Shown in pieces: positions 9,188-19,829 of a DNA stretch of 33,301 nucleotides. Source of the stretch: Pseudomonadota bacterium (lineage in GTDB: Bacteria > Pseudomonadota > Alphaproteobacteria > Sphingomonadales > Sphingomonadaceae). Where the stretch lies: the NCBI GenBank assembly GCA_018242165.1, contig JAFECL010000013.1:1-33301 (forward strand), in the 5' to 3' direction. Made by a program: the position numbers and the translations under genes. Each line of letters starts with the position of its first letter. Position 1 is the stretch's first letter. The notes under the pieces were generated by a model. That model was given only the letters and a program-made list of their open reading frames with translations. It made no database searches and was not told the DNA's origin.

Positions 9188-11670
9188 AAGATCTTGCGCA
9201 GCTCGATCCCGATCACCCGCCCCAGCGGGTCGATCAGGTCGGGCTGGTAGGCCAGCGGCACCTGCCCGCTGGCGTCGGTGACCCGCTGACGCCGGTTCAG
9301 CAGGTTAGTCACCCCCAGCCCCAGCCGCGCGCCCTTCAGCACCGGCCATTCAGTGGCGGCGGGCAGTTGCCCCAGTTCGACAAAACCCCGCAGGTTAAGC
9401 TTCAGCACCGAGCCGAAGCGCAGCGTGCTGCCGCTGCCCGCCACGGTGGTCGGGCTGGCCCAGTTGCCGGTCAGCCGCAGGCCCACGCCCTTGTAGAAGG
9501 CTCCGCCCTCGCCTTCGATGCTATGCCGGGCCACGCCACCACCCGACAGGGCATCGCCGTTCAGCAGGTCAAGCTCGGTGCTGCCCGGGGCGAGCCGGGC
9601 GCGATCGACGAACTGCACGGTGTGATAGAGCGAGACATTCCAGCGCCCCGGATAACGCGGGCCGCGCGGCCCGCCCGGGCCACCCGGCGGGCCACCGCCA
9701 AAGCCACCCCCGGCGCGCTGGCCGCCGCCTGGCCGGGGCCCACCCCCGCCAAAACCGCCGCCCAAGCCGCCGCCGCCGAACATCCCGCGCCCGCCCGGAG
9801 GCAGCGGCTGGCCCAGGTTGCCGCCCAGGTTCAGCCCCCAGCGCAGCCGCGCCTCGTGCTGGCTGGCAAGGGTGACGGGGCGCTGATCGACCAGGCTGAT
9901 CGCCCCGCCGCTGCGTACCACCCGGCCCGGATAGGCCGCCTCGACCGCCGGGGTCAGCAACGGAAACGGGATCGTGACATTGCTCGACCGGTTATCAAAA
10001 TACTCGACCAAGAGATTGGAATTACTGAGAACTGGCAGTTGCCAATTGGCTGACAGCTTGACGTCGTGCTGCTGCTGGCGGGCCAACAGGGGATTGCCTC
10101 CCGACAGCACCGTCGCCAGCACGCTGCGCCCGGTGGCGAAATCGAACATCGGCACGTTGAAGGTGGTGACCTGCGGATTGCCCAGATCGCCCAGCCCCGG
10201 CGCGGCCTGATTGCCGATCCAGCTGGCCTGCAGGCCCAGCCTGGTGGTGACGTTCCAGGTCAGCCCGGCGCTCCAGTCGATCAGCCAGCCGAAGTCGGAC
10301 AGGCGGTCGGCGCCCAGGCTGGTCTGCGCGGTGATATCGCCCAGGGCCTCGCCGACATGCTCGCGCCGGCTGGTCAGCGGCAGGGCCAGGGTCATCCCCG
10401 CCGAGGCATCGCCGCGCCGCAGGTCGCTGGCCGGGGTCAGCCCCAGCGAATCGCGGGCCGCCAGCCCGGTCCAGGTAAAGCCCGCCTTCACCGTCAGGCT
10501 GGCCGGCCCGGCCGGCAGGCGGAACGGACGGCCGATCAGCGTTGCCAGCGCCGTGGCATTGTCGCTGGCCGCCCGGCTGCGGCGGATCGCGCCCGGCATG
10601 ACCGAAGGCAGCGGCGCGGTAACGCTCAGCCCGCCCGCCAGCGCCGCCGCCGTCAGCCCGCTGGTGTCGGCCGGCTGGAGCCGGTCGGTCAGGGTCACGG
10701 TATGGCCGGCATCCAGCGTCGCCGCCAGTTGCCAGCCGCCGATGAAGCTGTTCAGCGCCGCCCCGCCCTGTACGGTATCGGTGGTGGTCTGGCGGGTCAG
10801 CGGCCCGGGCAGGTAGCGCAGCGCCGCCGGCCCGGCGGGAGCCACCAGCAGCACCTGGTTCAGCCCGCCCTGCCCCAGGCTTTCGCCATGGCTGGCACTG
10901 GCATTCAGGGTCAGCGTGCCGCCCGCGCCCTTTTCGCCCAGCCCCCGGGTCCAGACCAGATTGCCCGACAGGTCGCGCGCCCGGGCCACCAGCGTGCGGT
11001 TGGCGGCCGGATCGGGATCACCGCCGACATGGCCCAGCGCCCCCGCCGGAAGGTTGGGCGCCGGTTCGGCCACGCCCCGGTCGGCCTCGGTCAGCGGCGA
11101 GGTATGATCGGCCCGCAGCGTCAGGTTGAAGCGCTGCGGCCCCTTGATGCGCAACTGCCCGCCGTGGGCCTGCAGGGTGCGGGTGCCGCCCGCGCCGGGA
11201 ACGCTGGCCTCCACCTCGCCATGGCGGCTGCGGAAATTGTCCTTGAGGATGAAGTTCACCACCCGCTGGTCGGGCGGATAGCCATAGCGCAGCGCCACTT
11301 CCTCGGGCAGCACCTCGACCTTGCGGATCGCTTCCGGCGGATAGTCGCGCAGTTCGCGGAACGAGGAAATCCTCAGGCCATTGACCAGGATCACCGGCAT
11401 CCCGCCGCCGCGCCCGCGCCCCGAATTGGTCTGCGGGGCAATCGCCGCCAGCAGGTCGGTGATGGTCGCCGCGCCGTAGGAGGCGATATCTTCCTCGTCG
11501 AGGGTGATGACCGGGGCCTGCGGCACCTCGACCTGCCCGGCGATCCGCCCGGGATGCGCGGTGACGACGATTTCCCCCCCGCGCGCCGGCGCCGCATCGT
11601 CGGCGCGGGCCGGGGCGGCGATTGCGCCTAACGGCAGGGCAAGCAAGGCAAGACGATTGCGGGGGGGCAT
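9184..11670 (-). CDS. TonB-dependent outer-membrane receptor
   Basis: 828 aa. A signal peptide (residues ~1-23, MPPRNRL... ending APARA) is followed by EIVVTA, a plausible TonB box, and a plug domain ([46 protein letters not shown]). The rest reads as alternating beta strands of a 22-strand barrel, ending in IELRKIF with a C-terminal Phe that suits BAM recognition. The plug lacks an obvious siderophore signature, so the ligand is unknown. An unusual glycine-rich stretch lies at about residues 625-672 (9655-9800). Start ATG 11670 is chosen because it puts the signal peptide at the N-terminus; the frame is open to 11775. Its stop overlaps that of the convergent acyltransferase. Confidence 0.9.
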
Positions 11671-15753: not shown

Positions 15754-16335
15754 GTGCCCGTTTCGGAAATGATTGCCGGCAGCGCAGTGGCCGCGGTGAT
15801 CAGCAACCCCCGCCTGCCCGACAATCCGATTATCGAATGCAACGACGCCTTCGTGGCGCTGACCGGCTATACCCGCGACGAAATCGTCGGCCGCAATTGC
15901 CGCTTCCTGACGGGCGAAGACACCGAACCCTGGCTGATCGAAGCGCTGCGCGAAGGCATTCGCGAGGCCCGGCCGGTGATGGTCGAAATCCTCAACTACA
16001 AGAAAAACGGCCAGCCCTTTCGCAACGCGGTGCTGGTTGCGCCGATCTTCGATGCCAGCGGAGCGCTGGAATACTTCCTCGGCTCGCAGATGGAGATCGT
16101 CGACACCGGGGCGGGCGGGCGCCCTGCCGCCGCGCGCGCGCTGATCGAGGGGCTGACACCCCGCCAGCGGACCGTGCTGATCGCCATGGCCAAGGGCAAG
16201 CTCAACAAGCAGATCGCCTACGACATGGGGCTGGCCGAACGCACGGTGAAGATGCACCGTTCGGCGCTGCTGCAGGCGCTGGGGGTGCGCACCACCGCCG
16301 AGGCGGTGCGGCTGGCGATCGAAGCGGGCTACTGA
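15754..16335 (+). CDS. LOV-HTH blue-light transcription factor (EL222-like)
   Basis: 193 aa. Residues ~5-115 form a PAS/LOV domain with the flavin-adduct motif GRNCRFLTG, reactive cysteine C49, and the flavin-contacting ILNYKKNGQPFRNAVLVAP and YFLGSQMEI (the conserved Asn and Gln). Residues ~130-193 are a LuxR/GerE helix-turn-helix (LTPRQRTVLIAMAKGKLNKQIAYDMGLAERTVKMHRSALLQAL). The layout and many residues match EL222 of Erythrobacter litoralis, in which blue light forms a Cys-FMN adduct, frees the HTH and allows dimeric DNA binding. Start GTG 15754 has AAGGAG at 15739-15744; the ATG at 15746 is out of frame. It lacks the longer N-terminal extension of EL222. Confidence 0.93.
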   Translation: MPVSEMIAGSAVAAVISNPRLPDNPIIECNDAFVALTGYTRDEIVGRNCRFLTGEDTEPWLIEALREGIREARPVMVEILNYKKNGQPFRNAVLVAPIFDASGALEYFLGSQMEIVDTGAGGRPAAARALIEGLTPRQRTVLIAMAKGKLNKQIAYDMGLAERTVKMHRSALLQALGVRTTAEAVRLAIEAGY

Positions 16336-16469: not shown

Positions 16470-16488
16470 TACCGGGGCGTTGCGGACC

Positions 16489-17091
16489 ATGAACAATTCC
16501 ATGCAGATCTGGGTGCTGAACAGCTCCAGCAAAGGCCGGGCCGGGGTCAACTTCGCGCTTGCGCAGCTGGGGCTTCATGCCGACCTGTTCGAGGATTTTG
16601 CCGAGCTGCCGCTCGAGCTCAACGAACCGACCCTGCTGCTGATCGAGGAGCGGCTGGCGCTGTCGAGCGCCTTCGTTGCTTACCTGGGATCACTTAACGA
16701 GGTACCCGGCTACATCGTCCTGTCGGAAGAGCCGAACTGGCAATCGGCGGTATCGGCGATGCGCGCCAACGCGCTCGATTACCTGCCCTGGCCCTGCCCG
16801 CGCCAGACCCTGGCCGAGGCGATTGCCCAGGCCGGCGCTGACAGCCGCGTCTCGGTCCACCAGCGCCAGCGCCGCGACGTGGCCCGCCAGCGGGTCGAAC
16901 GGCTGTCGAAGCGCGAGCGCGAGGTGCTTTCGGGCGTGACCCGGGGCATGACCAACAAGGATATCGCGGCAGTGCTGGGGATCAGCCACCGCACCGTCGA
17001 CGTGCACCGGGCCAACCTGATCCACAAGCTGATGGTCCACAACACGCCCGAGGCGATCAAGGTCGCCATCGACGCGGGGATGCCGCTGTAA
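16489..17091 (+). CDS. LuxR/FixJ-type transcriptional regulator with degenerate receiver domain
   Basis: About 200 aa with the FixJ layout: an N-terminal receiver-like domain (~1-120) and a C-terminal LuxR HTH (VERLSKREREVLSGVTRGMTNKDIAAVLGISHRTVDVHRANLIHKL, ~140-200). The receiver lacks every phosphorylation residue: the first strand ends in NSSS where the acidic pair should be, the phospho-acceptor region reads LLLIEERL with E53/E54 for Asp, and the conserved Lys after strand 5 is replaced (DYLPWPCP). It is therefore a pseudo-receiver, either constitutively acting or controlled by a non-phosphate signal. Start ATG 16489; ATG 16501 is an alternative. It lies 153 bp after the LOV-HTH gene and converges on the hybrid kinase gene. 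Confidence 0.88.
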   Translation: MNNSMQIWVLNSSSKGRAGVNFALAQLGLHADLFEDFAELPLELNEPTLLLIEERLALSSAFVAYLGSLNEVPGYIVLSEEPNWQSAVSAMRANALDYLPWPCPRQTLAEAIAQAGADSRVSVHQRQRRDVARQRVERLSKREREVLSGVTRGMTNKDIAAVLGISHRTVDVHRANLIHKLMVHNTPEAIKVAIDAGMPL

Positions 17092-18743: not shown

Positions 18744-19285
18744 TACGGACCTTCGATCGTGATTTCGAACCGCGCCCCACCCGGCACTTCGCCGATCTCG
18801 AGCACCGATCCGCGCAAACCGAACCGGTCCAGCAGGCCTTCGAACAGCCCGACCACAAAGGGCTCCAGCCCGGCGCGATCGCTGCGATAATCGACCACCA
18901 TGCGCTGACCATGATCCTCGACCAGCACGAACGAGGGCACCCGCGCCTGGGGCATCGCGACGATCACCGCCTGATGCAGCCGGTCAAGATTGCCGATGAA
19001 TTCGCCCAGCGTGCGCCCGGTGAAGCTGAGCATCGAACCGAACGAACCGCGCTCCGCGAACTGCACCCACGATCGCCCGAAATCACGCATCATCGTCGCG
19101 GTGCCGATTTCCAGCTTGGCCGCGGCGCTGGCGATCATTCTGATGGTCAATTCGTCATCGTAGAGATTGAGACTGATGAATTCGGCCGGGCCGACCTGCA
19201 GATGCTGTTCAAGCTCGGCCCAGCCCTCGGGGCCAACCCGCTCGATCATCATGTCGCGCAGGCCCCGATGGATCATTCCGTACAC
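18743..19285 (-). CDS. H-NOX haem-binding gas sensor
   Basis: 180 aa, single-domain H-NOX (HNOB). It starts MYGMIHRGL as the family does. The proximal haem ligand is H104 (NLDRLHQAV), and the propionate-binding YxSxR motif is Y133-R-S135-D-R137, the same spacing as H102/Y131-R135 of the Thermoanaerobacter protein. A proline in MPQARVPSF matches the haem-distorting Pro. Bacterial H-NOX proteins bind NO (some O2) and regulate adjacent kinases or cyclic-di-GMP enzymes. Start GTG 19285 has a very strong GGAGGAGGG (19292-19300), which lies inside the end of the preceding small gene, three bases after whose stop this gene begins. Confidence 0.95.
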   Translation of the reverse strand: MYGMIHRGLRDMMIERVGPEGWAELEQHLQVGPAEFISLNLYDDELTIRMIASAAAKLEIGTATMMRDFGRSWVQFAERGSFGSMLSFTGRTLGEFIGNLDRLHQAVIVAMPQARVPSFVLVEDHGQRMVVDYRSDRAGLEPFVVGLFEGLLDRFGLRGSVLEIGEVPGGARFEITIEGP

Positions 19286-19288
19286 CGA

Positions 19289-19555
19289 TCACCCTCCTCC
19301 CGCACCGCCCTTGCGGCCCTGTTCGAGTCGCTCCGCCATCCGGTCGAGCAGCAGGGATGCCCTTTCCACCTGTTCCGCGATTCGGTCGAGTCGCGAATGC
19401 AGGTAGGCGGCCTGTTCCTCGGACAATTCGGCCCCCAGCCGCGACCGGAGATTGCCGGCGCTGAGGCTCACGACATTGAGTGGCTGACGCAATTCGTGTA
19501 GCATCTGGCCAAGATCGTTTCGCGCATCGTCGCGGATCAGCTCGGAAATCGCCAT
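19289..19555 (-). CDS. Stand-alone histidine-phosphotransfer/dimerisation (HisKA-like DHp) mini-protein
   Basis: 88 aa. Residues 12-75 read as a two-helix HisKA/DHp hairpin: the H-box is M-L-H20-E-L-R-Q-P-L-N-V-V, followed by a second helix (EEQAAYLHSRLDRIAEQVERASLLLDRM). No ATPase domain follows; the protein ends in KGGAGGG. ATG 19555 has AGGGGG 9 nt upstream. The gene is first in an operon with H-NOX (3-nt gap) and the HNOBA hybrid kinase. It could dimerise with the kinase, accept and relay phosphate, or act as a decoy; none of this is shown by sequence alone. Its H-box type (HELRQPLN) differs from that of the neighbouring kinase (HDFNNFLS). Confidence 0.8.
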   Translation of the reverse strand: MAISELIRDDARNDLGQMLHELRQPLNVVSLSAGNLRSRLGAELSEEQAAYLHSRLDRIAEQVERASLLLDRMAERLEQGRKGGAGGG

Positions 19556-19610: not shown

Positions 19611-19829
19611 GCGATTGATCAGCCGTGAATCTCCATGGTGTGCGAATTCGTTGGTCATAGCAGCGTTTTGACGATATTACCCGTTTGATCGCTGCCATTT
19701 TAACACTTTCCGGCCCTTGCTGGGTTCTGGAAATAAGGGTTATTGACTATACCGCCGGGTCGCCCAACCAACCGGCAGTAAGTGCCGTCATATCGGGTTT
19801 AATTTTTTGATGGCGAACCGCGCGTGAAC

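Follow-up and report, generated by a model that had tools for sequence, protein, structure and literature searches.

A stand-alone DHp mini-protein leads MYG-type H-NOX operons in Sphingomonadales and is a candidate histidine phosphotransferase

Spo0B of Bacillus and ChpT of Caulobacter are DHp-derived proteins that take up phosphate from an intermediate REC and hand it to a terminal response regulator (RR), as PMC9981736, PMC6136694, and PMC3433190 describe, and ChpT resembles a histidine kinase in its structure (PMC3433190, in part). In the general stress response of Sphingomonas melonis, the histidine-kinase-derived phosphotransferase PhyT is fed by the single-domain REC SdrG (PMC5898713, in part). 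The Vibrio parahaemolyticus H-NOX kinase HqsK passes phosphate along a His-Asp-His route to the Hpt protein LuxU, and in the V. harveyi homologue NO makes the H-NOX kinase a phosphatase, reversing the flow of phosphate (PMC6759604, excerpts).

We describe here, from the window (the whole 33,301-nt stretch of DNA analyzed), an H-NOX operon led by the gene of a stand-alone DHp protein, mini-DHp, which comparison of sequences indicates is probably a DHp-derived histidine phosphotransferase acting between the REC of a hybrid kinase and an RR, as Spo0B, ChpT, and PhyT do. Spo0B and ChpT carry C-terminal catalytic-like domains; mini-DHp, in contrast, lacks any catalytic-like domain, comprises 65 to 88 aa, and belongs to a different pathway. 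The CckA-ChpT-CtrA system is laid out like the one proposed here, with a hybrid kinase, a DHp phosphotransferase, and an RR (PMC9981736, PMC6136694, PMC3433190, all in part). PhyT shares with mini-DHp a kinase ancestry and a sphingomonad host and has the phosphotransferase function proposed for mini-DHp, but it is membrane-anchored and has an HRxxN DHp and a degenerated ATPase domain (PMC5898713, in part). The H-NOX/HqsK-LuxU system likewise joins an H-NOX, a hybrid kinase with a REC, a separate His carrier, and an RR; LuxU, however, is an Hpt protein, whereas mini-DHp is a HisKA protein by profile and the product of the first gene of its H-NOX operon, and its presumed RR, a REC-winged-helix (REC-wHTH) protein, also sets it apart from that relay. 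The Vibrio relay thus gives the wiring a precedent; the type of carrier has none in the open-licence PMC literature searched, where the available text on H-NOX relays, including PMC8738867 and PMC6759604, yielded no kinase-less DHp component.

The initial annotation had read the locus (Table 1) as an 88-aa ORF with H20 in an HELRQPLN motif and no ATPase domain, followed by H-NOX after a 3-nt gap, with the H-NOX Shine-Dalgarno inside its coding end, and leading an operon for H-NOX and its hybrid kinase; ORF, Pfam, and sequence data bear out each of these points. The ATG of mini-DHp lies at 19555 on the minus strand, preceded by the G-rich stretch TGAGGGGG, and its stop ends at 19289, 3 nt from the GTG start of H-NOX at 19285. 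H-NOX adjoins its effector kinase, the two genes sharing 1 nt; HNOB, HATPase_c, and REC are all encoded downstream of the mini gene. In H-NOX, His104 and Tyr133-x-Ser135-x-Arg137 are invariant across the 7 relatives of alignment A1. In the kinase, HATPase_c and a C-terminal REC score over their cut-offs and an HDFNN-type HisKA scores under its own; the protein ends at the REC, with no Hpt by Pfam. The ~150 N-terminal residues are, we infer, HNOBA/PAS-like; HNOBA itself has no match in the window kinase and matches two relatives below cut-off.

Table 1. Features of the H-NOX locus and its divergent regulator in the window
Feature	Position	Strand	Basis or remark
Hybrid histidine kinase, 525 aa	17166..18743	-	Pfam; motif alignment with 27 relatives
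H-NOX haem sensor, MYG type, 180 aa	18743..19285	-	Pfam HNOB 3.6e-34; alignment A1
Candidate H-NOX Shine-Dalgarno GGAGGAGGG	19292..19300	-	Within the mini gene's final codons; read from sequence
Mini-DHp (stand-alone DHp/HisKA protein), 88 aa, putative phospho-acceptor His20	19289..19555	-	Pfam HisKA, alignment A3, dN/dS in relatives
Candidate operator, half-site ATGGCAGCGAT, at -142	19686..19711	-	Between RR and mini gene
Divergent response regulator (RR), REC and C-terminal MarR-like winged helix, 303 aa	19824..20735	+	Pfam

Residues 17 to 79 of mini-DHp match Pfam HisKA (PF00512) over profile positions 8 to 65 of 66, with an E value of 1.2e-7 and 32.1 bits against a cut-off of 26.9, and H20 is the H-box His within this match. 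The ORF stops after the DHp, and Pfam gives no HATPase match, so that the catalytic (HATPase/CA) domain that defines a histidine kinase is missing. Neither the window protein at E 10 nor any of 31 family members at E 0.01 matches Hpt (PF01627), and the ChpT-type HPTransfase (PF10090) is likewise absent from all of them; HisKA at E 0.01 is found in 28 of the 31 and misses 3. The two-helix fold is predicted from the near-full-length HisKA match. A search of solved structures returned a single match, 5app (E 0.0085), a GCN4 coiled-coil fusion that is not useful here. Relatives measure 65 to 83 aa with start codons picked by eye.

That the ORF might be a broken kinase, which a frameshift would betray, had been named in advance as grounds for dismissing it, but the mini gene is separated from H-NOX by 3 nt and no kinase remnant comes after it; a similar short ORF in 28 named loci, ending 9 to 57 nt before H-NOX, rules out such a remnant as well. 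A chance ORF is ruled out by its presence in all 28 Sphingomonadales loci and by purifying selection, dN/dS lying between 0.037 and 0.304 in 14/14 close mini-gene pairs tested.

The search for homologues and their neighborhoods that the initial annotation had proposed finds the mini ORF retained beside H-NOX throughout the Sphingomonadales loci of our named-genome scan. An alignment of seven H-NOX proteins recovered 62 loci in that scan, 28 of them from Sphingomonadales (L061 to L087 and L105), and in all 28 the mini ORF lies directly upstream of H-NOX, scoring at least 69 bits against 13 for the next-best ORF (at least 90 against 11 with a larger mini-DHp profile). None of the other 34 loci, which come from Caulobacterales/Hyphomonadaceae, Rhodobacteraceae, other alphaproteobacteria, cyanobacteria, gammaproteobacteria, and a planctomycete, has it. 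Nearly all 62 H-NOX proteins start with MYG (L107 has MFG, and the L083 match starts three residues in). MYG also begins 33 of the 34 H-NOX proteins from outside Sphingomonadales, none of which has a mini ORF at its locus; mini-DHp is thus restricted to Sphingomonadales and, there, to the MYG type, and an accessory of every MYG-type H-NOX is ruled out.

Denser sampling agrees with this boundary. H-NOX occurs in 47 of 298 genomes of a family sample; among the 30 loci fetched, the mini ORF accompanies 5/5 of the MYG type and 0/25 of the MKG-like ones, both by an H-box-like motif filter and by profile. A profile search of the same 298 genomes, with at most 18 candidates scored per genome, matched 15 at 1e-8; among the matches listed, short mini ORFs fall in the same five genomes only, and the other ten genomes match in frames of 364 to 857 aa. 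A genus sample held 49 H-NOX genes in 36 of 149 genomes, and with all 49 read the mini ORF accompanies 13/13 MYG-type genes and 0/36 others (one of these 36, L238 in G816, has an N-terminus that is not clear); six genomes carry both H-NOX kinds, with the mini ORF only at the MYG copy. A general H-NOX accessory is ruled out by its absence from the 25 family-sample and 36 genus-sample non-MYG loci. In a class sample, 104 of 385 genomes match the mini-DHp profile at 0.001, and the sole short frame listed is the window's own, among at most 14 candidates scored per genome, a depth at which copies could be missed. A search at E 1e-5 of 72,556 plasmid records gave no match, nor did a scan of genome contigs with a single mini protein as query.

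Alignment A3 comprises 31 distinct mini-DHp sequences, which all have Q24, P25, N27, L31, N35, L52, R58, I59, and Q62. All but one of the 31 also have H20 (L073 has Gln), and an acidic residue, E or D, occupies the next position in 29, the exceptions being L062 (HQ) and L070 (HA). Four further copies stand outside A3 and its counts: His is kept in those of G781, G807, and G816 and lost in that of G753, Ala follows the His in G807, and QP becomes QT in G816 and QS in G753. In helix 1 of the CckA DHp, whose phospho-His is H322, the REC is contacted by N326, A330, L333, and Q337 (PMC9981736, in part). These contacts correspond to H+4, +8, +11, and +15; in mini-DHp +4, +11, and +15 are invariant and +8 is I or V in 31/31, a pattern that fits a conserved REC-docking face. 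The argument is a modest one (hypergeometric 0.03, by hand), since the conservation of H+4 and H+11 may be general to DHp domains.

The most informative neighbor of the mini gene, absent from the initial annotation, is the divergent RR (Response_reg 2.4e-19; MarR 3e-4, below cut-off), which we propose as the terminal phospho-acceptor. An RR homologue adjoins the operon in 25 of the 28 named loci, 13 times divergently and 12 times convergently, downstream of the kinase, and its REC Asp is present in all 27 aligned sequences (the 25 loci, the window, and G010). The three loci without it are L071 and L086, whose contigs end in or near the kinase, and L074, which has full flanks and no RR in the flank examined. 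Mini-DHp occurs alongside both an intermediate REC and a terminal RR, as would be expected of a DHp-derived phosphotransferase, except in L074, where the RR is missing. The genus sample gave 31 RR matches, 16 of them at 41% identity or more. The mini ORF lies within 1.5 kb of 14 of these 16; in G010, the fifteenth, the mini gene is 7.7 kb away, and in G768, the sixteenth, a frame-broken copy is about 8 kb away. No mini ORF came within 1.5 kb of any of the 14 RRs examined among the 15 less similar ones; one of these 14, the second RR of G781, has a mini gene 2 kb away. The G010, G768, and G753 genomes have no H-NOX match. Two free REC proteins are encoded beside the mini gene of G010. In G753 (L185) the mini gene, at 9273-9500 and with its His lost, has the RR on one side and a LuxR-type gene on the other, and the interval matches neither H-NOX nor a kinase. 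The RR tracks mini-DHp even without H-NOX, and the carrier thus seems to follow the REC donor and the RR, not H-NOX itself. In L153 (G010) and L184 (G768) the mini gene keeps company with single-domain RECs, the RR being about 8 kb off, a second signaling context.

Between RR and mini gene, 12 of 14 divergent loci, the window among them, carry a TGGCAnCGAT-like half-site at -124 to -158 relative to the mini gene; L062 and L063 are the exceptions. The half-site is a near-perfect palindrome, TTGGTGCCAnnnTGGCACCGAT, in the Novosphingobium clade and was not found at the corresponding place in convergent loci; we infer that the RR binds this candidate operator. In the convergent, Sphingorhabdus-like loci L076 (4852-5529), L072 (2458-3135), and L070 (4922-5530), a protein that resembles the winged-helix part of the RR, apparently without a REC, is encoded on the same strand just upstream of the mini gene.

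In the relay that we propose, NO would be the ligand of H-NOX, and NO-bound H-NOX would set the kinase/phosphatase balance of the hybrid kinase. Phosphate would pass from His172 of the kinase to Asp458 in the LLTD motif of its REC, from there to His20 of mini-DHp, which most likely dimerizes into a four-helix bundle, and then presumably on to the divergent winged-helix RR, whose REC would accept it; with the kinase acting as a phosphatase, it would return from the RR by way of mini-DHp. Six H-NOX kinases elsewhere (L114 to L119, five gammaproteobacterial and one labeled only Proteobacteria) offer a parallel. As in the window, H-NOX adjoins a HisKA-HATPase-REC hybrid kinase, but all six kinases are HisKA-HATPase-REC-Hpt proteins with the second His in a fused Hpt (27.9 to 34.4 bits, cut-off 24.6), whereas the window has a separate DHp protein; the fused Hpt appears to fill the role that we propose for mini-DHp. 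The G278 genome, 99% complete, has mini-DHp, hybrid kinase, and RR, and no Hpt at E 0.01. The G753 locus, with an RR, no H-NOX or kinase match, and a mini-DHp that has lost its His, also counts for the relay.

Several data weigh against the need for such a relay. The H-NOX kinases of nine loci from other taxa (L088, L090 to L093, L097, L100, L101, and L107), whose H-NOX is mostly of the MYG type, all have a REC, no Hpt, and no mini ORF at the locus; an H-NOX hybrid kinase thus needs neither, and our confidence in the relay is slightly reduced accordingly. In L073 the mini His is Gln, though the ATP-site motifs of its kinase look intact. ChpT is present in 6/6 genomes tested, and Hpt scores over cut-off in four of them (G828, G010, G753, and G329); in the genome of the window, which is 83.6% complete, a single Hpt-like frame scores 20.8 bits, below cut-off. 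ChpT or an Hpt protein could serve the kinase REC.

The kinases themselves provide a further line of evidence. We aligned 28 of them, from the window and 27 loci, leaving out the truncated L071 and using for L085 the longer of two pieces (at L085:4647-6208 the kinase gene is apparently split into two overlapping frames). All 28 retain the REC Asp, an LMSG[YF] motif, and the lysine of KP, and ATP-site motifs look intact in 21/28, the window kinase included. The other seven, all from one Novosphingobium clade (L061, L064 to L068, and L105), have lost the Asn of the N-box, the Asp of G1, and the glycines of G2, and their HATPase_c scores of 24 to 33 bits, 4/7 of them over the 26.4 cut-off, compare with 67 to 73 in three intact relatives. 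Judged by these motifs, the seven (e.g., L064:6562-8325) are apparently pseudokinases. They retain an HDxxN H-box, and the mini His is kept at all seven loci. Degenerate ATP sites beside a kept REC Asp and mini His argue against mini-DHp as an autokinase partner, and suggest that in this clade H-NOX governs the removal of phosphate through the relay.

Three roles had been suggested for mini-DHp, as a relay intermediate, as a heterodimer partner of the adjacent kinase, and as its inhibitor. The co-occurrence of REC donor and RR and the invariant REC-facing residues support the relay intermediate best, and the heterodimer is disfavored. Were mini-DHp such a partner, the ATPase domain of the adjacent kinase would phosphorylate it in trans, as in a split or heterodimeric kinase, and phosphate would go on to the RR, by-passing the REC. 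Kinases use an acidic residue after the H-box His, and most mini-DHp proteins keep one (29/31) and are encoded in one operon with the kinase; this acid is missing, however, in L062 and L070, the mini H-box is unlike the kinase's, with no significant similarity between mini-DHp and the kinase DHp (BLASTP E 1.5), the mini gene persists with its His where 7/28 kinases have lost catalytic residues, and G010 has mini-DHp in a genome without H-NOX. We regard phosphorylation in trans as quite unlikely.

An inhibitor or allosteric modulator, for which Sda and FixT offer likenesses, would bind the DHp or REC of the kinase and carry no phosphate. Sda and KipI do act as inhibitors of sporulation kinases, the probable mechanism being a block of the DHp/CA interaction (PMC12189002, in part), and the copies in L073 and G753 are naturally His-less, but inhibition leaves the conservation of His in 30/31 proteins unexplained, fits poorly with the association of mini-DHp with the RR and, in G010, a genome lacking H-NOX, with free RECs, and is at odds with the loss of His in G753, which has no H-NOX and shows no kinase match at the locus; we consider it unlikely. 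Improbable too, in our judgment, is a pure phosphate sink, in which mini-DHp only drains the RR to the hybrid REC as an H-NOX-controlled off switch and another kinase supplies the phosphate. The degenerate ATP sites of the Novosphingobium clade, with HDxxN H-box and REC Asp retained, speak for a sink, and a Vibrio H-NOX kinase does reverse phosphate flow with NO (PMC6759604, in part). Against it, the intact ATP-site motifs of 21/28 kinases, the window's among them, make forward flow possible there, and 4/7 degenerate kinases still pass the HATPase_c cut-off. A wider synthesis, which we advance tentatively and with some doubt, is that the CA-less DHp family consists of minimal phosphotransferases for one REC-wHTH RR, and that in the Novosphingobium clade the pseudokinase drains phosphate and NO is sensed by reversing the relay, with the phosphorylating kinase elsewhere.

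If mini-DHp is indeed a phosphotransferase between the hybrid REC and the RR, a DHp hairpin alone suffices for the task, with no degenerate catalytic part such as PhyT, Spo0B, and ChpT have, and H-NOX signaling gains a dedicated His carrier from its own transcript, together with a transcriptional output. The degenerate-kinase clade, G010 without H-NOX, and G753, which lacks both H-NOX and the His, would then be natural experiments on relay rewiring in a tiny protein.

Possible relatives of mini-DHp occur in larger frames: the proteins at L189:16709-18019 (436 aa) and L190:3850-5094 (414 aa) have an HDLAQPLN H-box, match neither HisKA nor HATPase of Pfam at E 0.1, each have a neighboring second protein with an HELRQPLF-type H-box, and are possibly degenerate-kinase phosphotransferases. 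Convergent with the kinase of the window lies a FixJ-like LuxR-type regulator at 16480-17091, which scores above the GerE cut-off and does not match REC at E 10, and a similar gene is found near the operon in several related loci. Beyond it, at about 15780-16335 on the plus strand, a frame with a GRNCRFL motif, read by eye, likely encodes a LOV/PAS-LuxR-type protein and overlaps an opposite-strand folE-like ORF, likewise recognized by eye.
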